A DNA stretch of 64,000 nt from Chloroflexota bacterium (GTDB taxonomy: Bacteria > Chloroflexota > Dehalococcoidia > Tepidiformales > Tepidiformaceae), in the NCBI GenBank assembly GCA_026705605.1, contig JAPPAK010000001.1, positions 558,001 to 622,000 of the forward strand, read 5' to 3'. A model generated the notes under the pieces. That model made no database searches. It saw only the letters and a list, made by a program, of their open reading frames with translations, and was not told the DNA's origin. Numbering within the stretch: position 1 is the first letter of the stretch; each line of letters starts with the position of its first letter. Below are positions 38,410-49,386 of this stretch, piece by piece. The position numbers and the translations under genes were made by a program.

Positions 38410-39885
38410 CTAGATGCCGAGCTCGCCCCACAGCTCGTTCGCCTGCTTCTGCAGGTCGGCCCGGAAATCCGGATGCGCCACGCTGATCAGCTCGGCGGCG
38501 CGCTGCCGGTGGTTCTTGTCGAGCAACCGTGCCACCCCGTACTCGGTCACGATCGTGTCCGCCAGGTAGCGCGGGATCGTTACGAGCGTGCCCGCCTCGT
38601 GCTTCGCCACGATCTTCGAGAGCGAGCCCTCGATGGCCGTCGAACGCAGCACCGTGATGGCGCGTCCGTCCGGGCAGAGCGCCGCGCTGATATGCGTGTC
38701 CGGCTGCCCGCCCGTCCCGTTGATCATCTGGCCGCCGTAGCGGTCCTCGCTCGCGATCTGCCCCAGCAGGTCGACCGCCACAGCGCTGTTGATCGAGGTC
38801 ATCTGGCTGTTCTGCGACATCAGCGCCGGGTTCAGCAGGTAGTTCGGGTCGTACACCTCGAACGCGGGGTTGTCGTTGATGATCCCGAGGTCCACGCCGT
38901 CGCAGCCCGTCCACGCCACGGCCACGCAACGCTCCTTGTGGATCGTCTTCCGCGAGTTGTCGATGATGCCCCGCGCCCAGAGCTGCGCCAGCCCCGGCGA
39001 ACCCAGCTCCGTGTGTACGCCGAGGTGCTTCGCGTGGTCGAAGGCGCCCGCCTTGAACATCAGCGCGCTCGGCGTGCCCACGCCCACCTGAATGGTGTCG
39101 CCGTCCCGGATCAGCGGCGCGAGATTGTCGGCGATCGCCTGCGCCTCATCGTCGACCTCCGCCAGCCCGAACGCCTGCCGCACGATCTTCGGCGGGAGCA
39201 TGTGGTACATGCTCTCCGCCAGCGCGATTTGGTCGGGACTGGCCATGTCGAGCAGCTCCAGCAATTCCGCGCGGTTCTCCTCTGGCGCCTGGGTGTTCAC
39301 CCGTTCCCGCACCGCCTCCGCGTTCACCGGCTGGATGACGCCCTCGATGAAGGCCGCGAACTCGCTCACATGCACCCACACGTCACCGTGCGCGGGCGTG
39401 ATGTTCGGGTCGATCATCCCGATGGTCCTGGGGCAGCGCTTCGCGTACGACTTGCGGGTCCACATGTGCACCCCGAACTGCACGTAGCCGGCGTCGTTCG
39501 GCTCGCTGCACGAGGTGATCTGCACGTCCGGAAGGCGCGCCTCCTCGCGGCCCGCGTCGAACGCCTTCATGCCCAGCATGAACGTGTTCGGCAGGTAGGT
39601 TGCGATCTTGGCGTCGTGCGCCGCCCGGAGCGGCTCGCCGATGAAGAGCTCGAACTCGCGCTCGCCGTTCTGGCCGGGACTGAAGAGCCGCGGCTCCGTG
39701 GGCGAGAGCGCGCGCACATGCATGCTCCCGAGCTCATCGGCGCGGTCGGCCAGGGCCGAGGCGAGCTGCGCGGGCGTCAGAACGCCCATCGTCACCAGGT
39801 CGCCCTCGCCGATGAGCGCCATCGCCTCCTCAACGCTGCAGAGGCGCTCCTTGTAAGCCTCCCGCCAGTCTCCTGAGTGCGTCAT
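38410..39885 (-). CDS. Acetyl-CoA hydrolase/CoA-transferase family protein
   Basis: The start ATG at 39885 (MTHSGDWREAYKERL) gives 491 residues. Family I CoA-transferase features are HLGVHTELGSPGLAQLW, where the Glu of HTE is the expected catalytic residue, GDTIQVGVGTPSA in the CoA-binding region and GTGGQPDTHISAAL with RSTAIEGSLSKIV near the C-terminus. It resembles 4-hydroxybutyrate or acetate CoA-transferases. It moves CoA between acids, here probably for catabolism. It is the last gene of a minus-strand catabolic cluster, 10 bases after a Rieske ferredoxin gene. The substrate acid is not known. Confidence 0.85.
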   Translation of the reverse strand: MTHSGDWREAYKERLCSVEEAMALIGEGDLVTMGVLTPAQLASALADRADELGSMHVRALSPTEPRLFSPGQNGEREFELFIGEPLRAAHDAKIATYLPNTFMLGMKAFDAGREEARLPDVQITSCSEPNDAGYVQFGVHMWTRKSYAKRCPRTIGMIDPNITPAHGDVWVHVSEFAAFIEGVIQPVNAEAVRERVNTQAPEENRAELLELLDMASPDQIALAESMYHMLPPKIVRQAFGLAEVDDEAQAIADNLAPLIRDGDTIQVGVGTPSALMFKAGAFDHAKHLGVHTELGSPGLAQLWARGIIDNSRKTIHKERCVAVAWTGCDGVDLGIINDNPAFEVYDPNYLLNPALMSQNSQMTSINSAVAVDLLGQIASEDRYGGQMINGTGGQPDTHISAALCPDGRAITVLRSTAIEGSLSKIVAKHEAGTLVTIPRYLADTIVTEYGVARLLDKNHRQRAAELISVAHPDFRADLQKQANELWGELGI

Positions 39886-39895
39886 GGCCTCGCTC

Positions 39896-40288
39896 CTAGG
39901 TGAAGTTGAAGTTGAACCCCCGAGGATCCTCGTAGGACGGTGGCTCGGGCTTCTTGTACTGGACTTCGATCTCGTCGGTGTCCTCGTTGTAGCGCACCGG
40001 GAAGGACGCGACCGGCCGGAACGCCGGCAGCGACTTCGCCGCGCCATCCCGCACGTCGAACTTGGCGCCGTGGCGAGGGCAGTCGATCTCGTAGCCGACC
40101 AGCCTGCCCTGGCCGAGCGGTCCGTCGTCGTGCGAGCAGCGGTTTTCGATGGCGAAGTACCCCTCGACCAGGTGCACGAGCACGATCGAGTCCTCGCCGA
40201 ACTCGATGATCGCGCTTTCGCCCGGCTTCAGCATGTTCGCGGGCCCTACCGGCGTGAAGGGGGTTTCGCTGTCGGTCTGCTCGCTCAT
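39896..40288 (-). CDS. Rieske-type ferredoxin
   Basis: The 130-residue protein holds a Rieske [2Fe-2S] domain with C51, H53 (CSH) and C70, H73 (CPRHG), the standard C-x-H and C-x-x-H pairs. Free-standing Rieske ferredoxins pass electrons to Rieske oxygenases, such as the one encoded just upstream. An extended C-terminus of about 30 residues with KKPEPPSYEDPRGFNFNF is unusual. It lies between the oxygenase gene and the CoA-transferase gene. Confidence 0.88.
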   Translation of the reverse strand: MSEQTDSETPFTPVGPANMLKPGESAIIEFGEDSIVLVHLVEGYFAIENRCSHDDGPLGQGRLVGYEIDCPRHGAKFDVRDGAAKSLPAFRPVASFPVRYNEDTDEIEVQYKKPEPPSYEDPRGFNFNFT

Positions 40289-40364: not shown

Positions 40365-41645
40365 CTAGCGGTCCGGCCCGTAGATGTAGTCGTCGATCGT
40401 CTTGTGCATGTGGCGGATGCGCCGCTCTCGGTAGTTGATGAGCAGGCCCTTGTAGGCCCGCGAATTCATCCCCTTCTGCACGCGCGGCAGGTTGTAGGAA
40501 TCCTGATCGAGGACGAGCCCGATGGAGATCTCGCCATGCTTGTACGTCGTGTGCGCAGGTCGCGGTGGCGGGTCCGCCCCGTCCGGAATCCGCGTGTAGT
40601 TCTGCAGGTCGAAGTACATCTTGTTCGGGTCCGTCGCGTGCGGACGCTGCCGGAACACCATCACGCCCGTGTGATGCGTGTTCAGCGTGATGCTCGGGAA
40701 GATGTAGTAGTGGTAGTCGTCCGTCATCTGGTCGTCGTTGAGCTCTGAGACATCGATCCCGCGCGCTTCCGTGCTCTCGCGGGCCGCCGTCTGCATCATC
40801 GTGCGGACCTCTTCGGGCGCCCCGTCGAACTCATCCGGGTCGACGCCCGCGCGCACCAGCATGCCCTGCAGCGCGTCCGTGATCTCGTCCTTGTTCGGAT
40901 AGCGCGGGCTCAGCAGCCCGAACGGCACCAGGTAGCGGTTGTGGCGCTCGTACAGGTCGATCTGCACGTGGATGTCGTCGAGCGACTCCAGCAGCTGCGG
41001 GTGGATCCCCTGAACGTGGTAGACCTCGTTGAAGGCATCCACCGAGGCCTTCCAGTTTGTGTCCCACTCGATCGTCTTGTCCTGGACGATGTACATCTTC
41101 TCGAAGTGGTACGGGTCGATGTGCTCCGGCAGCACCCCCAGGAACTCTTCGAGGGGCTCCGCGTCCGGGTTCATGTTGAACCAGACCCAGCCCGCCCAGG
41201 TGTCGCACGGCACTTCGACGAGCGCCGTCTCCTGGGGAACGCCCTGGGTGAAGGTGTCCTCGTCCGGGACGAACTTCTTCGAACCGTCGAGGTTGAACTC
41301 GAAGAAGTGGTAGGCGCACTGGAAGCTCTCGGCGTGGCCCATCCCCGGATTTCGGATCTGGTTCCCGCGGTGGGGGCAGACGTTGTAGAAGGCGCGGACC
41401 TTGTCCTCCGCCTCGCGCACGATCAGGAACGACTCCGGCCCCAGCTCGGTGGTGAAGTAGTCACCAACGTTGGGGATGTCCTGCTCCCGTCCGGCGACGT
41501 TCCACACCTTGGTCCACATCCGCTCCCACTCGAGCTCCATGAACTCCTTCGAGGTGTAGCGTTCCTTCGGGATCAGCTCCGTGCCCAGCAGGGGCTCCGG
41601 CGCCTTCTCCTGGGGGGTGCCCTTCACTCGTGCTTCAACAACCAC
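40365..41645 (-). CDS. Rieske non-heme iron oxygenase, catalytic subunit
   Basis: The GTG start at 41645 follows AAGGAG and gives 426 residues. The Rieske domain carries C90, H92 (CPHRG) and C110, H113 (CAYH). The catalytic domain begins around 170; the mononuclear iron ligands are H210 and H215 in NEVYHVQGIHP, with E207 as likely bridge and a third ligand Asp probably in LVLDQDSYN. Such enzymes hydroxylate or demethylate aromatic, amine or terpenoid substrates using O2 and electrons. The neighbouring ferredoxin is the probable donor; no reductase gene is in view. The substrate cannot be told. Confidence 0.9.
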   Translation of the reverse strand: MVVEARVKGTPQEKAPEPLLGTELIPKERYTSKEFMELEWERMWTKVWNVAGREQDIPNVGDYFTTELGPESFLIVREAEDKVRAFYNVCPHRGNQIRNPGMGHAESFQCAYHFFEFNLDGSKKFVPDEDTFTQGVPQETALVEVPCDTWAGWVWFNMNPDAEPLEEFLGVLPEHIDPYHFEKMYIVQDKTIEWDTNWKASVDAFNEVYHVQGIHPQLLESLDDIHVQIDLYERHNRYLVPFGLLSPRYPNKDEITDALQGMLVRAGVDPDEFDGAPEEVRTMMQTAARESTEARGIDVSELNDDQMTDDYHYYIFPSITLNTHHTGVMVFRQRPHATDPNKMYFDLQNYTRIPDGADPPPRPAHTTYKHGEISIGLVLDQDSYNLPRVQKGMNSRAYKGLLINYRERRIRHMHKTIDDYIYGPDR

Positions 41646-41746: not shown

Positions 41747-42265
41747 CTAGTACGAACCCGGCGTTGGCACGATTTCCGTGCCCATCTCCTCCGGCTCCAT
41801 CCCCAGCGTGATGAGCACCTTCGAGAGGCTCATGAAGAGCCCCACCCCCAGCGCCATCTCGACGATCTCGGGGTCGCTGAAGTGCTCCCGCAGCCGCTCC
41901 TGCACCTCGGGCGTCACCTGCCTCGGGTCCCCGATGATCGCATCCGTCAGTGCGATCGCCGCCTTGTCCCGCGAGGACAGGTCCGACTCTTCGTAGCCGT
42001 CCTCAATCTCCGTTACCTGGTCTTCGGTCAGTCCTTGCTCACGCGCCACGGCGAAGCGAACGTTCTTTCAGTAGCCGCAGTCTGTCACGCGGGCGTTTCG
42101 CATCCGCGTGACCTCCTTCGTGCGGTGGTCGAGGGCGCCCTTGCTCCAGAACGTCCCGTAGAGCATCCCGAAGGCCCCCGCCAGGCCCGGCTGGTGCGCC
42201 AGCGCCGTGCCGAAGCTGGCCTCCTCGCCCGGTATCGCCGAACTCACTCGTGGTTTGGTCGACAT
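41747..42265 (-). CDS. AhpD/CMD-family protein, candidate selenoprotein (CxxU)
   Basis: One frame from ATG 42265, five bases after a GGAGG, runs to a TAG at 41747-41749 and is interrupted only by one TGA at 42068-42070. Reading it as selenocysteine gives 172 residues with MSTKPRVSSAIPG at the start, ALDHRTKEVTRMRNARVTDC in the middle and C63-G-Y-U66-K-N-V-R-F at the redox site. In the alkylhydroperoxidase D-like family this site is CxxC, so U66 replaces the second cysteine. Both halves fit the family and are in the same frame. A candidate SECIS hairpin follows (42031-42061). The alternative is a TGC-to-TGA nonsense mutation. Neighbouring catabolic genes suggest a redox or decarboxylase-like role. 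Confidence 0.72.
42031..42061 (-). promoter_or_regulatory. Candidate bacterial SECIS element
   Basis: Downstream of the TGA, GUUC-GCU-U-CGC-CGUG-GCG-CGUG-AGC-AA-GGAC can fold as a bulged stem with a CGUG apical loop. The loop starts 17 bases after the UGA and has a G at its second position, as in the bacterial SECIS consensus. The stem is irregular. Covariation and free-energy tests were not possible. Confidence 0.5.
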
Positions 42266-42284
42266 TGCATCCTCCTTCGGGACA

Positions 42285-42785
42285 TCAGTAGATCGGCCCC
42301 TCGCTCGAGGCCGGCATCGGCGCCTCGACCGGCGCGGGCTCGGTGCCCAGCGCCAGGCGAAGGCGGCAGTTCGCATCGAACAACGCCACCCCGATCGTTA
42401 GCGCCACCACCCCCGACTCGCCGAAGTGCGCGTTCAGGTCCGCGTACTCCTCGTCGGTCAGGTCGTGGTGCTGCCAGGGCATCTTCTCGGCCAGCGTCAG
42501 CGCGGCTCGCTCCTGCTCGCTGAACAGGTCGCTGCCCGCCCAGTCCGCGAGCGCTGCGACCTGCGCGTCGCTCACGCCGGATTCGGCGTGGCGAACGGCC
42601 AGCTCGGCCTCGCAGTCGTGCAACTGCGCGACCCGCAACCGGCACAGCTCAAGCAGGCTCGCGGGCAGCAGCTCCTCGTCCCAGAGCTTCCCGTAGAAGG
42701 CCGCGTACAGATCACGGAGCTCGGGCCGCAGGCCCAGCGCCGCGTCGAACGGCGCGCTTCCTTCTGCCCCTTCGAGCCAGGTCAC
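42285..42785 (-). CDS. CMD/AhpD-like family protein
   Basis: The 166-residue protein begins at a GTG (MTWLEGAEGSAPFDAALG) and has the family pattern LLELCRLRVAQLHDCEAELAVRH. Only one cysteine remains at the redox site (C of HDCEAE), so it probably lacks peroxidase activity of CxxC type. A partner helix LTLAEKMPWQHHDLTDEEY with FGESGVVALTIGVALFDANCRLR is also typical. It lies just upstream of the CxxU protein and may be its partner or a paralog. Function is unknown. Confidence 0.78.
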   Translation of the reverse strand: MTWLEGAEGSAPFDAALGLRPELRDLYAAFYGKLWDEELLPASLLELCRLRVAQLHDCEAELAVRHAESGVSDAQVAALADWAGSDLFSEQERAALTLAEKMPWQHHDLTDEEYADLNAHFGESGVVALTIGVALFDANCRLRLALGTEPAPVEAPMPASSEGPIY

Positions 42786-42833: not shown

Positions 42834-43352
42834 TCAGGTCGCCGCCACCTGCGGGATTCGCACCCGTCCCAGCCGCTGCGCGACCTCCGTGATCCCCACC
42901 GCGAACGTCGCCGGGATCAGCTCGCCCCGCTCGATTGCCTCGATGAACATCGGCAAGATCGTCAGCAGCACGCGGATGCGTACGGACTCGCGCGCGTGCC
43001 ACTCCTCCGAGACCCGCCCCTCGGCCACCATCTCCTCCAGGTCCTTTGGCAGGTAGACCCCGCCCCGGCGTGCGTACGCCATCGTGGCCACGACTGCCAT
43101 CGCTCTCGGGTCTAGGTCGGTGCGGTGGAAGCCGGCGCTCTGGCTGGCCGGAAACCGCTGGATCGCTCCCTGGACATTCTGGTGCAGCGCCTCCGCCTCC
43201 ACGACTGCCCCCGCGATGGCGCCTTCCGGATCCTCCAGCTCCGACGCCAGCAGCACGCCCCCCGCCAGCTCCGCCTCCGCCGCAGCCGTCACGTCCTCAA
43301 TGCTGGCCCCCTCCGCGGAAAGGGACTTCAGGTGGTCGATCAGCGCGCCCAT
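42834..43352 (-). CDS. Unrecognised 172-residue protein
   Basis: The frame starts with ATG at 43352 and is mostly helical: MGALIDHLKSLSAEGASIEDV, then a conserved-looking AEALHQNVQGAIQRFPASQSAGFHRTDLDPRA and a C-terminal amphipathic region. There are no membrane spans or signal peptide, and no cysteines. I do not recognise the family. It lies between the CMD-like gene and the aco-type operon, with a good terminator hairpin upstream of it, so it may begin its own unit. Codon use is normal for the window. Confidence 0.6.
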   Translation of the reverse strand: MGALIDHLKSLSAEGASIEDVTAAAEAELAGGVLLASELEDPEGAIAGAVVEAEALHQNVQGAIQRFPASQSAGFHRTDLDPRAMAVVATMAYARRGGVYLPKDLEEMVAEGRVSEEWHARESVRIRVLLTILPMFIEAIERGELIPATFAVGITEVAQRLGRVRIPQVAAT

Positions 43353-43422: not shown

Positions 43423-44820
43423 CTAGACGTGCAGCACCCGGTCGTAGGCGTCGAGCACGGACTCGTGCATCGCCTCCGAGATCGTCGGGTGCGGGAACAC
43501 GGTCTCCATCAGCTCCGCTTCGGTCGTCTCCAGGCCCATCGCGACGACGAACCCCTGGATCATCTCCGTCACGTCCGGGCCCACCATGTGCGCCCCGAGC
43601 AGCTCGTCCGTATCGGCGTCGAAGACCGTCTTCACCATGCCTCCGGTGTCGCCCACGGCGATCGCCTTGCCGTTCCCGACCAGTGGGAAGCGCCCGACGC
43701 GCACGTTGAAGCCGGCTTCCTGGGCCGCCGCCTCGGTCAGGCCGACGCTCGCGACCTGTGGGTGGCAGTAGGTGCAGCCGGGGATGCGCCGCCGCTCCAT
43801 CGGCCGCGCCGAGGGAAGCCCTGCGATCCGCTCCACGCAGATCACGCCCTCGTGCATCGCCTTGTGCGCCAGCAGCGGCGGCCCGGCAACGTCGCCGATG
43901 GCGTAGAGCCCCGGCTCGCCCGTCTCCAGCCACTCGTTCACGACAATCGCCCCGCGGTCGACCGTGGCCGCTGTCGCTTCGAGCCCGAGGCCCTCGACGT
44001 TGCCGGTCACGCCCACCGCCAGGATCGCGCGGTCGAAGGTCGCCTCGATCGTGCCGTCCTCGGTCGCGATCGTGGCCGTCACGCTGTTGTCGCCCCTCTC
44101 GAGCGACTCCACCGTAGCGTTCGTGTGCATCGTGATGCCCTGCTTCTCGAACTCCTCGCGGGCGAAGGCCGAAATCTCCTCGTCCTCCACCGGCAGGATG
44201 CGGGGCAGCACCTCCACCACCGTCACCTCCGCCCCGAGCGACCGGTAGAAACTCGCGAACTCCACGCCGATCGCCCCCGACCCGATGACCAACAGCGAGT
44301 CCGGCATCGTCGTCGGCACCATCGCCTCCTTGTACGTCCAGACCAGCTCGCCGTCGGGCTCCAGGCCCGGCAGCGAACGCGGGCGGGCGCCCGTCGCCAC
44401 GATGATGTTGTCGGCGCCCAACTCGGCCACGGTCTCGCCATCCTTCTCGACGACGATCCCGCCTCCGCCAGTCAGCCGTGCTGCCCCGTCGAACACCTGG
44501 ATTTTGTGCTTCCGCATCAGGAACTTGACGCCGCTGTTGAGCTGGCGCGCCACCGACCGCGAGCGGCTCACGACCTTGTCCAGGTCGAACGAAGCCTCCG
44601 CCGTCAGGCCATAGCGCTCCGCGTCCTGCATCTCGCGGTAGAGGTCGGCCGTGTGCAGGAGCGTTTTGGTTGGGATGCAGCCCCAGTTCAGGCAGATGCC
44701 CCCCAGGTGCTCCCGCTCCACGAGCGCCGTCTCCAGCCCAAGCTGGGACGCGCGAATCGCTGCTACGTAGCCGCCCGGGCCGCCGCCCACCACCACGACA
44801 TCGAACGTTGTTTCCGCCAT
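43423..44820 (-). CDS. lpdA: Dihydrolipoyl dehydrogenase (E3)
   Basis: The ATG at 44820 gives 465 residues starting MAETTFDVVVVGGGPGGY. The FAD-binding glycine motif GGGPGG is at 12-17, and the redox disulfide is C43-LNWG-C48. The NAD site is seen as LLVIGSGAIGVEFASF and the C-terminal dimer region has PHPTISEAMHESV with the active-site His. E3 reoxidises the lipoyl group of E2 with NAD+. It is the last gene of an operon with acoX-like and E1/E2 genes, ending at a hairpin. Confidence 0.95.
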   Translation of the reverse strand: MAETTFDVVVVGGGPGGYVAAIRASQLGLETALVEREHLGGICLNWGCIPTKTLLHTADLYREMQDAERYGLTAEASFDLDKVVSRSRSVARQLNSGVKFLMRKHKIQVFDGAARLTGGGGIVVEKDGETVAELGADNIIVATGARPRSLPGLEPDGELVWTYKEAMVPTTMPDSLLVIGSGAIGVEFASFYRSLGAEVTVVEVLPRILPVEDEEISAFAREEFEKQGITMHTNATVESLERGDNSVTATIATEDGTIEATFDRAILAVGVTGNVEGLGLEATAATVDRGAIVVNEWLETGEPGLYAIGDVAGPPLLAHKAMHEGVICVERIAGLPSARPMERRRIPGCTYCHPQVASVGLTEAAAQEAGFNVRVGRFPLVGNGKAIAVGDTGGMVKTVFDADTDELLGAHMVGPDVTEMIQGFVVAMGLETTEAELMETVFPHPTISEAMHESVLDAYDRVLHV

Positions 44821-44831
44821 CGTGCCTCTCC

Positions 44832-46214
44832 CTAGACCAGCAGCCGGAACGGCGCTTCGAGGTAGTCGCGCACCGAGGCCAGGAACTGCGCCGCCGGCGC
44901 CCCGTCGAGCGCGCGGTGGTCCCACGTCAGGCTCAGCGTCATCGCCTTTTGCCGGACGGGACGCTCACCCTCCCAGCGCACGTCGTCGCGCAGCCGGTTC
45001 ACGCCGAGGATGCCTACCTCGGGCGGGTTGAGGATGGGCGTGAACGAGTCCACCCCGAACATCCCCAGCGTCGACACGGTGAACGTGCCGCCCGCCATGT
45101 CGTCGAGCCCGAGCTTCCCTTCGCGCGCCAGCCCCGCCAGGCGCGAGGACTCGAGCGCGATCTCCTTCAGCCCGAGCTGGTCGACGTGCCGCACGACCGG
45201 CACGACCAACCCCTCGTCGAGCGCCACCGCCATGCCCACGTGCACTTCGCCCCGCAGGTTCATCTCTGTGCCGAGGAACTGTGCGTTCATGCGCGGGTGG
45301 TCGAGCAGCGCCTTGGCTGCTGCCTTCATCACGATGTCCGTGTAGGAGGGGCGCACGCTGTCGCCCGCCCACTCCTCGATGAGCTGGCTGCGCAGCTTCA
45401 CGCAGTCGTCCATGGCGACGTCCATGTCCATGGTCAACTGCGCCGTCTCCTGCAGGCTCGCGTACATGCGCTCGGCGATGACCTTGCGCATGCCCCGCAC
45501 CGCCATCACTTCGTCCTCGCGCGCCGCCGCCGGAGCAGCCGCTGCTGCGGGGGCAGCAGCGGGCGCGCCGCCCGCTGCCGCCGCCTCAACGTCTTCCTTC
45601 GTGATGCGACCGCCGGGGCCGGTCCCCGTCACCGTCGACAGGTCGACGCCCAGCGCCTCCGCGCGCTTCCGCGCCAGCGGCGAGGCCGGCGCCGGGGCGC
45701 CTGCGGGGGCAGCCGCGGGTGCGGCTGCTGCCGCTTCGTGTGCGGTGCGCACATCGTCTTCCGTCACGCGCCCGCGGGGACCCGTCGCCGTAACCGTGGA
45801 GAGGTCTACGCCCAGCTCTTTCGCAAGCCGCCGTGCGGCCGGCGAGGCCGGCACGCGCTCGCCCTCGGCTCGCGCCGGGGCGGCGGGAGCTGCAGCCGCT
45901 GTTGCTGCAGGCTCTGCCTCGGCGGGAGCGGCTGCCGGGGCGTCTCCCGCGCCTGGAAGGACATCGGGAATCTCCTCGCCTGCGGCGTAGATCCAGCCTA
46001 CGACCGCTCCCGGATCGACGGTGGCCTCGGCCGGCACCAGGTGTCGCACGATGCCCGCGGCTTCCGCCTCGACCTCCATCTCGACCTTCTCGGTTTCGAG
46101 CCGGTAGAGGTCCTCGCCGAGCTTCACCTCGCCGCCGTCGGGGATGTGCCACTCGGCTACGGTTCCCTCCGTCATCGTCATGCCGAGCTTCATCATGTAA
46201 ATCTCGGTTGGCAT
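44832..46214 (-). CDS. acoC: Dihydrolipoyl acyltransferase E2 with two E3-binding domains
   Basis: The 460-residue protein has a lipoyl domain with the lysine K43 in ETEKVEME, then two peripheral-subunit-binding domains at about 122-156 (RLAKELGVDLSTVTATGPRGRVTEDDV) and 176-210 (a near copy), separated by Ala/Pro linkers. The catalytic domain ends with WDHRALDG, the His-Asp pair at H433 and D437. It transfers acyl from E1 to CoA. Two tandem binding domains are unusual; one is normal. The E1 and acoX genes upstream and lpdA downstream suggest an acetoin-dehydrogenase type complex, but pyruvate cannot be excluded. Confidence 0.88.
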   Translation of the reverse strand: MPTEIYMMKLGMTMTEGTVAEWHIPDGGEVKLGEDLYRLETEKVEMEVEAEAAGIVRHLVPAEATVDPGAVVGWIYAAGEEIPDVLPGAGDAPAAAPAEAEPAATAAAAPAAPARAEGERVPASPAARRLAKELGVDLSTVTATGPRGRVTEDDVRTAHEAAAAAPAAAPAGAPAPASPLARKRAEALGVDLSTVTGTGPGGRITKEDVEAAAAGGAPAAAPAAAAAPAAAREDEVMAVRGMRKVIAERMYASLQETAQLTMDMDVAMDDCVKLRSQLIEEWAGDSVRPSYTDIVMKAAAKALLDHPRMNAQFLGTEMNLRGEVHVGMAVALDEGLVVPVVRHVDQLGLKEIALESSRLAGLAREGKLGLDDMAGGTFTVSTLGMFGVDSFTPILNPPEVGILGVNRLRDDVRWEGERPVRQKAMTLSLTWDHRALDGAPAAQFLASVRDYLEAPFRLLV

Positions 46215-46215
46215 C

Positions 46216-47262
46216 TCATCCCCCGTCCTGTTGGAGTTGCTGTTCCTCTGGCGAGCCGCCGGCCGCCTCGTCTTTGCGATACAAACCCACGCACGCTGCG
46301 TACTCCAGCGTCGCGTGGACGTCGATCACCCAGGGACCATCCCGGGCTACTCGGAGTGTAGCCGCTTGCCCCGGTTTCAACACACGCTCGCGTTCGCCGT
46401 CGAACGCGAGCACCCCTGGTCCCGTCACGGTGACCGGTTCCCCGAGCGGGAGTCGTGCGTGTGAACGCACGGCGATGGGTTCGTACAGCCCCGGCGCGAT
46501 CGGCGCGAGCAGGGACACGCCCCCCTCGCCCGGCCCCAGCCGCAGGTGCAACGCCTCGTCCTCGTCCGGAGTCAACGGCGCCAGCAGGCCCCCGATGGAG
46601 GTGATCCCCACCGCCGACGGCTCCGCTCTCGTGACGACCGCCTCCCGCAGGCGCTCCCCGCCCCAGATCGCGCGCGATCCCACGAACCGGTCCGCCGCCA
46701 GCACGGCGTCGACCAGGGCGATGTCGTCGCGCTCACCGTCGATCTCGACGTGTACGGCCTTGACCTGCCTCGCGACCCGCTCCAGCGGCACCTGGCCGCT
46801 CGCCACCAGCCCCGCCGCCGAACCCGCCACCGTCGCCTCCACCATCGTCGGGAAGACGTTGTTGGTGCCCGTCGAGACGGGCACGATCGGTGCGTCGGGC
46901 CAGCCGAGTGCGAAGGCCCGGTTCGTGCCGTCGCCCCCGAGCGTGATGACCGCCCCGCAGCCCTCCGCCCGCAACGACTCCGCCGCGCGGATGGTGTCGA
47001 GCGTGCTCGCTGTGTGCGTCGCCTCAACCGCAACGAAAGTGGCCTCGGCGCCGAACTCCTCGGCCGCCGCTGCCGTGATCCCGTGCGTGTCGGGCATGTA
47101 GCGGAAGTCGCGCACCCCGCTCGCGAGCGCGCCTACGATGGCGCGCCGCACGATCGCGCGCTTCTCCTGGTTGTCGAAAACCGACGCGCGCGCAACGAGG
47201 CGGCGGATGTCCTTCCCCGAAGCGGGGTTGGCGGCGATCCCGAGCGGGCGCGAGGCGGTCAG
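46216..47262 (-). CDS. acoX: AcoX-like protein (NAD kinase family)
   Basis: Conserved residues GIAANPASGKDIRRLVARAS lie upstream of the first ATG/GTG/TTG, so a start at the CTG at 47262, two bases after the E1 beta stop, is proposed, giving 348 residues; the nearest usual start is GTG at 47151 (311 residues) and would cut away that motif. The core has VITLGGDGTNRAF and VPVSTGTNNVFPT, the ATP-NAD kinase-like motifs. AcoX is found with acetoin dehydrogenase genes and its function is unsettled. This is the main reason to favour acetoin over pyruvate for the complex. A start-codon oddity is likely rather than a frameshift. Confidence 0.72.
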   Translation of the reverse strand: MTASRPLGIAANPASGKDIRRLVARASVFDNQEKRAIVRRAIVGALASGVRDFRYMPDTHGITAAAAEEFGAEATFVAVEATHTASTLDTIRAAESLRAEGCGAVITLGGDGTNRAFALGWPDAPIVPVSTGTNNVFPTMVEATVAGSAAGLVASGQVPLERVARQVKAVHVEIDGERDDIALVDAVLAADRFVGSRAIWGGERLREAVVTRAEPSAVGITSIGGLLAPLTPDEDEALHLRLGPGEGGVSLLAPIAPGLYEPIAVRSHARLPLGEPVTVTGPGVLAFDGERERVLKPGQAATLRVARDGPWVIDVHATLEYAACVGLYRKDEAAGGSPEEQQLQQDGG

Positions 47263-47264
47263 GG

Positions 47265-48269
47265 CTACCCCGTCCCGAGGATGCGACGCGCCTCGGCCGC
47301 GATATGCTCGGCGTTCGGCACGTACGTCTGCTCCAGCACGGGGCTGAACGGCACGGGCGAGAACGGCGCCGCCACGCGGCCCACGGGCGCATCGAGGTAG
47401 TCGAACGCCAGCTCCGCGATCTGGGCCGCGATCTCCGCACCGACGCCGCCGAAGCGGACCGCCTCGTGCACGACGAGCGCGTTATGCGTCTTCGAGACCG
47501 AGTTGATGATCGTGTCCGTGTCGAGCGGCTGCAGCCACAGCGGGTCGATGACCTCGACGCTGATGCCTTCGCCCTCGAGGATATCCGCGGCCTTCGTGGC
47601 CTCGTGGATCATCCGCCCGTGGGCCACGACGGTGAGGTTGTCGCCCTCGCGCAGTACGTTCGCCTTCCCGATGGGAAGCGTGTACGGCTCCTCCGGTACC
47701 TCGCCCGGCAGCGCCATCAGGCCCTTGCACATCACGACGAACACCGGGTTCGGCTCGCGCGCGGCGGTGATGATCGCGCCCTTCACGTCGTAGGCCGTCG
47801 CCGGCATTACCACCTTCAGGCCCGGCGTGTGGCAGAGCCACGCCTCCAGGCTCTGGGAATGCTGCGCGGCCAGGTTCATGCCCGCGCCCGACATCGTCAG
47901 GACGGTCACCGGCAGCGTCGCCTTGCCGCCGAACATGTACCGCATCTTCGCGAGCTGGTTGACGATCTCGTCCATGCACTCGCCGATGAAGTCCATGAAC
48001 ATAATGTCCACGATTGGCTTGAGGCCCGTGGCCCCGGCCCCCACCGCCAGCCCGATGATGCCGGACTCGCTGATGGGCGTGTCGATCACGCGGTCCGGCC
48101 CGAACTCGTCGAGCAGGCCGCGGTAGATGCCGAACACGCTGCCCGCGCCGGCGACGTCCTCGCCGGCCATGAACGCCAGCGGTTCCTCCTGGAGCGCCTG
48201 GCGGACGCCCTCCGTGATCGCGAGGGTGTAAACGAGTTGCCGCCCGGCGGGCGCTTCTGCTGCGGTCAT
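47265..48269 (-). CDS. acoB: 2-oxoacid/acetoin dehydrogenase E1 component, beta subunit
   Basis: The 334-residue protein has the transketolase-like pyrimidine-binding domain with FMAGEDVAGAGSVFGIYRGL, DTPISESGIIGLAVGAG and PIVDIMFMDFIGECMDEI, and the C-terminal domain with NALVVHEAVRFGGVGAEIAAQI. Together with the alpha subunit it binds thiamine diphosphate. It lies 10 bases after acoA and 2 bases before acoX in translation order. Which 2-oxoacid or acetoin is used cannot be told from sequence alone. Confidence 0.9.
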   Translation of the reverse strand: MTAAEAPAGRQLVYTLAITEGVRQALQEEPLAFMAGEDVAGAGSVFGIYRGLLDEFGPDRVIDTPISESGIIGLAVGAGATGLKPIVDIMFMDFIGECMDEIVNQLAKMRYMFGGKATLPVTVLTMSGAGMNLAAQHSQSLEAWLCHTPGLKVVMPATAYDVKGAIITAAREPNPVFVVMCKGLMALPGEVPEEPYTLPIGKANVLREGDNLTVVAHGRMIHEATKAADILEGEGISVEVIDPLWLQPLDTDTIINSVSKTHNALVVHEAVRFGGVGAEIAAQIAELAFDYLDAPVGRVAAPFSPVPFSPVLEQTYVPNAEHIAAEARRILGTG

Positions 48270-48279
48270 TGGTTCGCTC

Positions 48280-49299
48280 CTAACTCGCCGCCGTGGGCGT
48301 GTAGACGTCGTTGAGCAGGTTCGCCGGGTCCGGCAGGGGGCTGTTCTCGGCGAATTCGATCGACTCGGTGATGTCGGCCATGACTGCGTCGTGCACGGCC
48401 TGGATCTCCTCCGCGGTCATCACGCCCATCTCGACCATGCGCTGCTCGTGCTGCGGGATCGGGTCACGGGCGCGCCACTCTTCGAGCTCCTCGTCGGTGC
48501 GGTAGTGCAGACCGATGCCGCGCAGGCCCACGTGGTCGACGAAGCGGTAGGTCTTGCACTCCACCAGCGTGGGGCCGCCACCCGAGCGGGCGCGTTCGAT
48601 CGCCTCGCCGGCGGCTTCCCAGACTGCAATCGCGTCCATGCCGTCGCAGATGACGCCCGGCATGCCGTACCCGGCGGCGCGGTCGGCGACGTCACTGATC
48701 GCCTGGTGCTCCGCCTGTGGCGTGAACTCGCCGTAACCGTTGTTCTCGCAGACGAACACCACCGGCAGCTTCCAGATGGCCGCCATGTTCGCCGCCTCGT
48801 GGAAGGCGCCCTCGTTCGTCGCGCCGTCGCCGAAGAAGGGGACGGCCACGTTCATGGAGTCGCGACCTTCCATCCGGGCGAGGTACTTGTTCGAGAAGGC
48901 CGCGCCCACGGCGATGGGCGGCCCCGCCGCCACGATGCCGTTCGCGCCGAGCATGCCCGCATCCACGTTCGAGATGTGCATGCTGCCGCCGCGGCCCTTG
49001 TTGTAGCCGGTCTCCCGGCCGTACAGCTCCGCGTACATCTTCTTGAACTCGCCGCCCTTGGCCACCAGGTGCCCGTGGCCGCGATGCGTGCTCGTGATCT
49101 GGTCCTGGTCGCTGAGGTGCACCATCACACCCGATGCGACGGCTTCCTCGCCGATGTACAGGTGCAGCGCCCCCGGCGACTTGCCCTGTTCCATCAGCTT
49201 GCCCGCCTCTTCCTCGAAGTGGCGAATTCGCACCATCCGGAGATGCAGGTCCTTCAGGACCTCTTCGCTTGGTTCCATTGCCTGGCTGCTGTTGGCCAC
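48280..49299 (-). CDS. acoA: 2-oxoacid/acetoin dehydrogenase E1 component, alpha subunit
   Basis: I choose the GTG at 49299, five bases after a GGAGG, giving MANSSQAMEPSEEVLKDLHLR and 339 residues. The thiamine diphosphate motif GDGATNEGAFHEAANMA through CENNGYG is clear, and the phosphorylation-loop-like region RYRTDEELEEW follows. The protein is the size of AcoA-type subunits. It is the promoter-proximal gene of the operon, with a predicted promoter at 49358-49386 and a palindrome further upstream. Confidence 0.88.
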   Translation of the reverse strand: MANSSQAMEPSEEVLKDLHLRMVRIRHFEEEAGKLMEQGKSPGALHLYIGEEAVASGVMVHLSDQDQITSTHRGHGHLVAKGGEFKKMYAELYGRETGYNKGRGGSMHISNVDAGMLGANGIVAAGPPIAVGAAFSNKYLARMEGRDSMNVAVPFFGDGATNEGAFHEAANMAAIWKLPVVFVCENNGYGEFTPQAEHQAISDVADRAAGYGMPGVICDGMDAIAVWEAAGEAIERARSGGGPTLVECKTYRFVDHVGLRGIGLHYRTDEELEEWRARDPIPQHEQRMVEMGVMTAEEIQAVHDAVMADITESIEFAENSPLPDPANLLNDVYTPTAAS

Positions 49300-49357
49300 G
49301 GCATCCTCCGCGCACAGTGGGATAGGGACGCCGTCGCGGGCGTCCGAGCGCCCGAGC

Positions 49358-49386
49358 ATCGTACAGGACCACTCCGACTCGACAAA
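49358..49386 (-). promoter_or_regulatory. Candidate promoter of the aco-type operon
   Basis: On the minus strand TTTGTC (49381-49386) and TACGAT (49358-49363) are spaced by 17 bases. The expected transcript would begin about 50 bases before the acoA GTG. Confidence 0.5.

Follow-up and report, generated by a model that had tools for sequence, protein, structure and literature searches.

Background

Selenoproteins of the AhpD-like and carboxymuconolactone decarboxylase (CMD) types, with a CxxU motif, were described in 2005 and again in 2008, and a 2026 review covers them (PMC1088965, PMC2398784, PMC13188914). The AhpD-like 1, AhpD-like 2 and CMD-domain selenoproteins of the Sargasso Sea and GOS surveys have a PF02627 domain, CxxU, a bacterial SECIS element after the UGA and Cys homologues, features that recur, the SECIS element probably among them, in the gene described here and referred to as Sec-CMD. 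These surveys were metagenomic and gave no host or operon for the protein encoded here, and the likeness is at the level of superfamily and motif. Because AhpD-like selenoproteins with CxxU have been in the literature since 2005, Sec-CMD belongs to a kind that has already been described; what is added is a host, an operon and an expansion of paralogs.

Mycobacterial AhpD takes its electrons from a lipoyl acyltransferase; the chain runs from NADH through Lpd, DlaT and AhpD to AhpC (PMC8945050, PMC12028322). Sec-CMD resembles Mycobacterium tuberculosis AhpD, the lipoamide-linked AhpC reductase, in its superfamily, in its vicinal redox pair and in its setting, with lipoyl-E2 and Lpd genes nearby, but differs in having Sec for the second Cys and Arg for the downstream His, and in scoring below the cut-off of the AhpD core model TIGR00778. 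The closest solved structures by sequence are those of the AhpD-like protein PA0269 (PDB 2ijc/2o4d), deposited as a hypothetical protein, in which CAYC aligns with the CGYU of Sec-CMD (E about 7e-12); PA0269 differs in its CxxC and in a His at +4.

The reading frame and its TGA codon

The window (the whole 64,000-nucleotide stretch of DNA analysed) contains the following features of the gene:

41747-42265, reverse strand: CMD/AhpD-like selenoprotein gene (probable), 172 aa with U66 (single-TGA frame; PF02627, 37.7 bits; orthologs)
42068-42070, reverse strand: putative selenocysteine codon 66, an in-frame TGA in CGYU (TGA in 12 same-family genomes and in G039; TGC in five genomes without SelA)
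42077-42079, reverse strand: Cys63 codon, the CxxU partner of U66 (sequence; invariant in alignment A2)
42271-42277, reverse strand: Shine-Dalgarno sequence AAGGAGG of the selenoprotein gene (sequence)

Retranslation from 42265 to 41747 on the reverse strand agrees with the original observation that the frame is broken by one TGA only and stays in phase on both sides: codon 66 (42068-42070) is the sole interruption before a terminal TAG, and the PF02627 match spans it. The ATG is preceded by a consensus-like ribosome-binding site (AAGGAGG), and the peptide around codon 66 reads NARVTDCGY-U-KNVRFAVAREQGLTE, which gives a redox motif C63-G-Y-U66 with U at the second CxxC position. It had been foreseen that gene finders would report two broken genes, and a list of open reading frames terminated at TGA does split the gene into fragments at 42376-42068 and 42049-41747.

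Family assignment

PF02627 (CMD), with a cut-off of 23 bits, scores 37.7 bits in a match that runs over the TGA from residue 33 to residue 107 and places the protein in the superfamily, and C63-G-Y-U66 aligns with the CAYC of 2ijc at the AhpD active-site position. The earlier label 'AhpD-like' thus holds at superfamily level, but not for canonical AhpD: TIGR00778 gives 22.5 bits against a cut-off of 27.8, and the AhpD His at +4 after CxxC, present in 2ijc, is replaced by Arg70, which is invariant in alignment A2. The peroxidase-related enzyme model TIGR01926 also falls short (42.7 bits against a curated cut-off of 81.8). None of the curated NCBIfam models reaches its cut-off for Sec-CMD, and the same is true of its paralogs, except for the generic AhpD core domain in L003. 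The best-scoring named family, NF053654 'YciW-related (seleno)protein' (E 6e-12), is the sole named family listed for three of the four U-paralogs; its cut-off is 310 bits, and Sec-CMD, with 45.6 bits, is not a member. A single-sequence AlphaFold model of the protein was set aside for its mean pLDDT of 45.

Selenocysteine machinery and the distribution of the TGA

The selA, selB, selC and selD genes, proposed at the outset as the first thing to look for, are all present in the same genome: SelA (424.6 bits), SelB (302.3 bits against a cut-off of 242), a tRNA-Sec (71 bits; anticodon TCA by ARAGORN) and SelD (L026; 347 bits). SelD has an in-frame TGA of its own, in the motif C-G-G-U (GCGGU), and is itself a probable selenoprotein. 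In published sponge-symbiont bins SelA and SelB occur together in most cases, while they are absent from most reference genomes (PMC5649159).

A contig scan recovered eight relatives at 88-99% identity, from Dehalococcoidia, Chloroflexi and Tepidiformaceae assemblies, all eight with the TGA and an open frame beyond it. When 38 genomes of the order were searched, these eight came up again, together with three further genera at 66-73% identity, every one of them with the TGA. The codon is present in 12/12 Sec-form genomes of the family (66-99% identity). All eight other genomes of the genus retain both the TGA and the two halves of the frame. Extending the search to 393 genomes of the class added a single case, G039, from another family, with 46% identity and the motif C-H-N-U. 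The idea that the TGA might be a lone nonsense change in this strain is contradicted by this conservation across genera. Both before and after the TGA, dN/dS within the genus is about 0-0.14, reaching 0.19 for the most distantly related member; both sides are under purifying selection.

Orthologs with Cys at codon 66, which it had also been proposed to look for, occur in the sister genus g17, possibly Tepidiforma, where five genomes have a gene with 51-53% identity and all five have Cys at the TGA position (C-G-F-C); 2ijc likewise has CAYC. SelA was found in all 12 Sec-form genomes and was undetected in 6/6 g17 genomes. The association between the Sec form and SelA (Fisher's test, p = 1.6e-4) may reflect a single event, because g17 is one clade, and the absence of SelA among the Cys forms is probably one evolutionary event. 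In the tree used for the direction of the Sec/Cys change the deep forks are weak; Sec is likely to be ancestral in this family.

The Rfam gathering score for tRNA-Sec yields false positives in g17. Matches of about 49 bits lie above this cut-off, and both of those checked (L086 and L087, in G022 and G027) proved to be tRNA-Ser(GCT); tRNA-Sec scores near the cut-off were distrusted for this reason.

Candidate SECIS element

One further feature lies just downstream of the TGA:

42037-42061, reverse strand: probable SECIS stem-loop of bacterial type; its apical loop, CGUG at 42047-42050, comes 17 nt downstream of the UGA (fold; synonymous constraint; fit to the bSECIS model)

The bSECIS criteria (PMC13188914) are an apical loop of 3-9 nt with an early G, a distance of 16-37 nt after the UGA and an MFE of -7.5 or below. 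The candidate, with its CGUG loop at 17 nt and a folding energy that varies with the segment folded, between -7.5 and -9.8 kcal/mol, falls within these limits. Hairpin energy was rejected as evidence by itself, as random windows and synonymous recodings are just as stable in such GC-rich DNA, and reliance was therefore placed on synonymous constraint and on the paralogs. Across six diverged Sec orthologs, codons 70-76 show 5/100 synonymous differences, against 56% elsewhere, and the eight-codon window from codon 70 has the lowest synonymous change in the gene; random draws of codons are as low as codons 70-76 in 1 of 100,000 cases. The Cys orthologs have no hairpin at the SECIS position. Covariation within the hairpin amounts to one change on both sides (C18-G27 to U18-A27), which is equal to the level in shuffles. 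The stem-loop just after the UGA is, on this pattern of constraint, a probable bacterial SECIS element.

It is highly improbable that the gene is broken, with a TGA that arose by sequencing error or by a recent nonsense mutation of TGC: although TGC and TGA differ by one base and the relatives are environmental assemblies, the identical codon recurs in independent assemblies from four genera and another family, dN/dS remains low beyond it, and synonymous change is at its lowest in the gene right after it.

Other genes with in-frame TGA codons

Four CMD paralogs in the same genome have a TGA at the same position of the motif, giving GCRYU (L003), DCDFU (L006), ACDFU (L007) and QCFTU (L008); the first three are located on contig C7 of G000 and the last on contig C3. 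In each, a hairpin of 7-9 bp with a G-first loop lies 18-20 nt after the UGA. Five of the eight CMD genes of the genome are probable selenoproteins. A further four genes, of peroxiredoxin/thioredoxin-like type, have an in-frame TGA in TGGU, UPFC and two near-duplicate UGC types, with the TGA at about 1620 in L102, about 1821 on the reverse strand in L107 and about 1599 in both L108 and L109. Together with SelD, the genes that have an in-frame TGA at a redox site number at least 10; five are CMD paralogs.

So many in-frame TGA codons might be taken as a sign that TGA has been reassigned genome-wide to a standard amino acid such as Trp, but there is scarcely any probability of this, given that TGA terminates neighbouring genes (at 42285, 42834 and 46216), that the in-frame TGA codons found are located at CxxU, UxxC or TxxU redox positions, and that relatives replace the TGA by Cys rather than Trp. 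The original prediction that residue 66 is selenocysteine is supported by the Sec machinery, the conserved TGA and the Cys in relatives without SelA, and at the level of sequence the gene almost certainly encodes a true CMD/AhpD-like selenoprotein with Sec at 66.

Operon and gene neighbourhood

The surrounding genes in the window are as follows:

38410-39885, reverse strand: CoA transferase/hydrolase, internal ATG chosen as start (PF13336)
39896-40288, reverse strand: Rieske ferredoxin (PF00355)
40365-41645, reverse strand: Rieske oxygenase alpha subunit, downstream of Sec-CMD (PF00848, PF00355)
42285-42785, reverse strand: second CMD, the tandem partner, with C-E-A-E for CxxC and TGA as stop (PF02627, 37.3 bits; synteny; stop codon)
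42834-43352, reverse strand: conserved operon protein, 172 aa, no Pfam or NCBIfam match (profile searches; synteny)
43423-44820, reverse strand: dihydrolipoyl dehydrogenase, E3/Lpd (TIGR01350, 553 bits against a cut-off of 408.8)
44832-46214, reverse strand: dihydrolipoamide acyltransferase, E2, with lipoyl domain (PF00198, PF02817, PF00364)
46216-47151, reverse strand: NAD-kinase-like protein (PF01513, 35.6 bits), presumably AcoX-like from its position
47265-48269, reverse strand: 2-oxoacid dehydrogenase E1 beta (PF02779, PF02780)
48280-49359, reverse strand: 2-oxoacid dehydrogenase E1 alpha (PF00676, 278 bits)

The order of transcription is E1 alpha, E1 beta, the NAD-kinase-like gene, E2, Lpd, the 172-aa protein, the CEAE-CMD and Sec-CMD, followed by the Rieske oxygenase, the Rieske ferredoxin and the CoA transferase. 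The 172-aa protein encoded at 42834-43352 has 38-88% identity in relatives, and in two of three genomes of the genus the CoA transferase ortholog starts near residue 51-55 of the longer frame. Three other genomes of the genus, as well as g13, retain the order from E1 beta to Sec-CMD. The g17 locus comprises E1 beta, the NAD-kinase-like gene, E2, a diverged E3-like gene (32%) and a CMD pair with Cys, and in G011 and G008 the CMD pair is found without an adjacent E2/E3.

The tandem arrangement of a CMD lacking the redox pair with a U-CMD recurs in every orthologous locus examined. It is also seen in G039, where the partner has C-A-Y-D (CxxD), and beside the genome's own paralog L008, where the partner has no Cys. 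CMD partners lacking the CxxC pair (42285-42785 in the window; 8033-8428 in L091) thus stand ahead of U-CMD genes at two loci that are unrelated, and the tandem partners may form heteromers.

Possible function

Sec-CMD is most likely a selenol/thiol redox carrier. On the comparative evidence, SelB and tRNA-Sec(UCA) read the UGA at codon 66, probably helped by the downstream stem-loop, and a C63-x-x-U66 redox pair results. In the mechanism envisaged, U66 would attack an oxidised substrate, which might be a peroxide or else a peroxiredoxin or OsmC-type partner in its disulfide or sulfenic acid form, and a Cys63-Sec66 selenenylsulfide would then form. This could be reduced by the dihydrolipoyl arm of the E2 from the same operon, which Lpd and NADH would recharge. 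Potential acceptors are encoded in the genome, in the form of peroxiredoxins (L101-L109) and an OsmC-family protein (L111).

A dihydrolipoamide-fed selenol/thiol reductase is proposed because the operon is conserved with its E1, E2 and Lpd genes, the second CMD and the Rieske oxygenase genes; the lipoyl-E2/Lpd pair is the best guess for the donor because the E2 and Lpd genes are conserved. This remains a tentative proposal, with a probability somewhat below even, in which the lipoamide step is drawn from the conserved operon and the analogy with mycobacterial AhpD. The operon position is only suggestive as regards this step, and in G011 and G008 the selenoprotein gene does not lie beside E2/E3; a simple transfer of the AhpD mechanism is further opposed by the Arg at the +4 His position in all sequences of alignment A2.

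A less probable arrangement is that the selenoprotein has no link to lipoamide and serves the downstream Rieske oxygenase pathway, for instance by removing peroxide or reducing an intermediate, the operon being shared only for substrate supply. The oxygenase and ferredoxin do come immediately after the gene in g13 and in most genomes of the genus, and the lack of an adjacent E2/E3 in G011 and G008 would be in keeping with this. However, the oxygenase is strongly diverged in g17 (32%) and was not found close to the gene in G028, G011 or G008, while E1 beta and E2 persist in G028 and g17.

It is rather unlikely that the tandem CMDs constitute one heteromeric enzyme of non-redox or mixed activity with the Sec subunit as its sole active site. 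The CxxC-less CMD precedes the U-form at all orthologous loci examined, in G039 and next to L008, as such an enzyme might lead one to expect, but the three other U-paralogs of the genome show no nearby tandem CMD.

The dihydrolipoamide-fed reading can be carried further, to a Sec-dependent accessory of the 2-oxoacid dehydrogenase complex, although this is a speculative extension and on balance a doubtful one. The CMD without a redox pair and Sec-CMD would form a heteromer that docks on E2, taps the lipoyl arm and feeds either peroxide defence or the Rieske oxygenase pathway, in a Chloroflexota lineage whose CxxU CMDs would have expanded to five per genome.

Implications

As standard annotation cuts this selenoprotein gene into two fragments, public genomes of the lineage probably omit the protein or give it in a wrong form. 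The retention of the gene with Cys in the sister genus g17, where SelA is undetectable, provides a natural comparison of Sec and Cys within the same operon. That Sec-CMD shares an operon with the genes of a lipoic-acid enzyme complex suggests a purpose for the protein, and the possible link to lipoyl-E2 and Lpd would give AhpD-like selenoproteins an electron donor that is directly testable.
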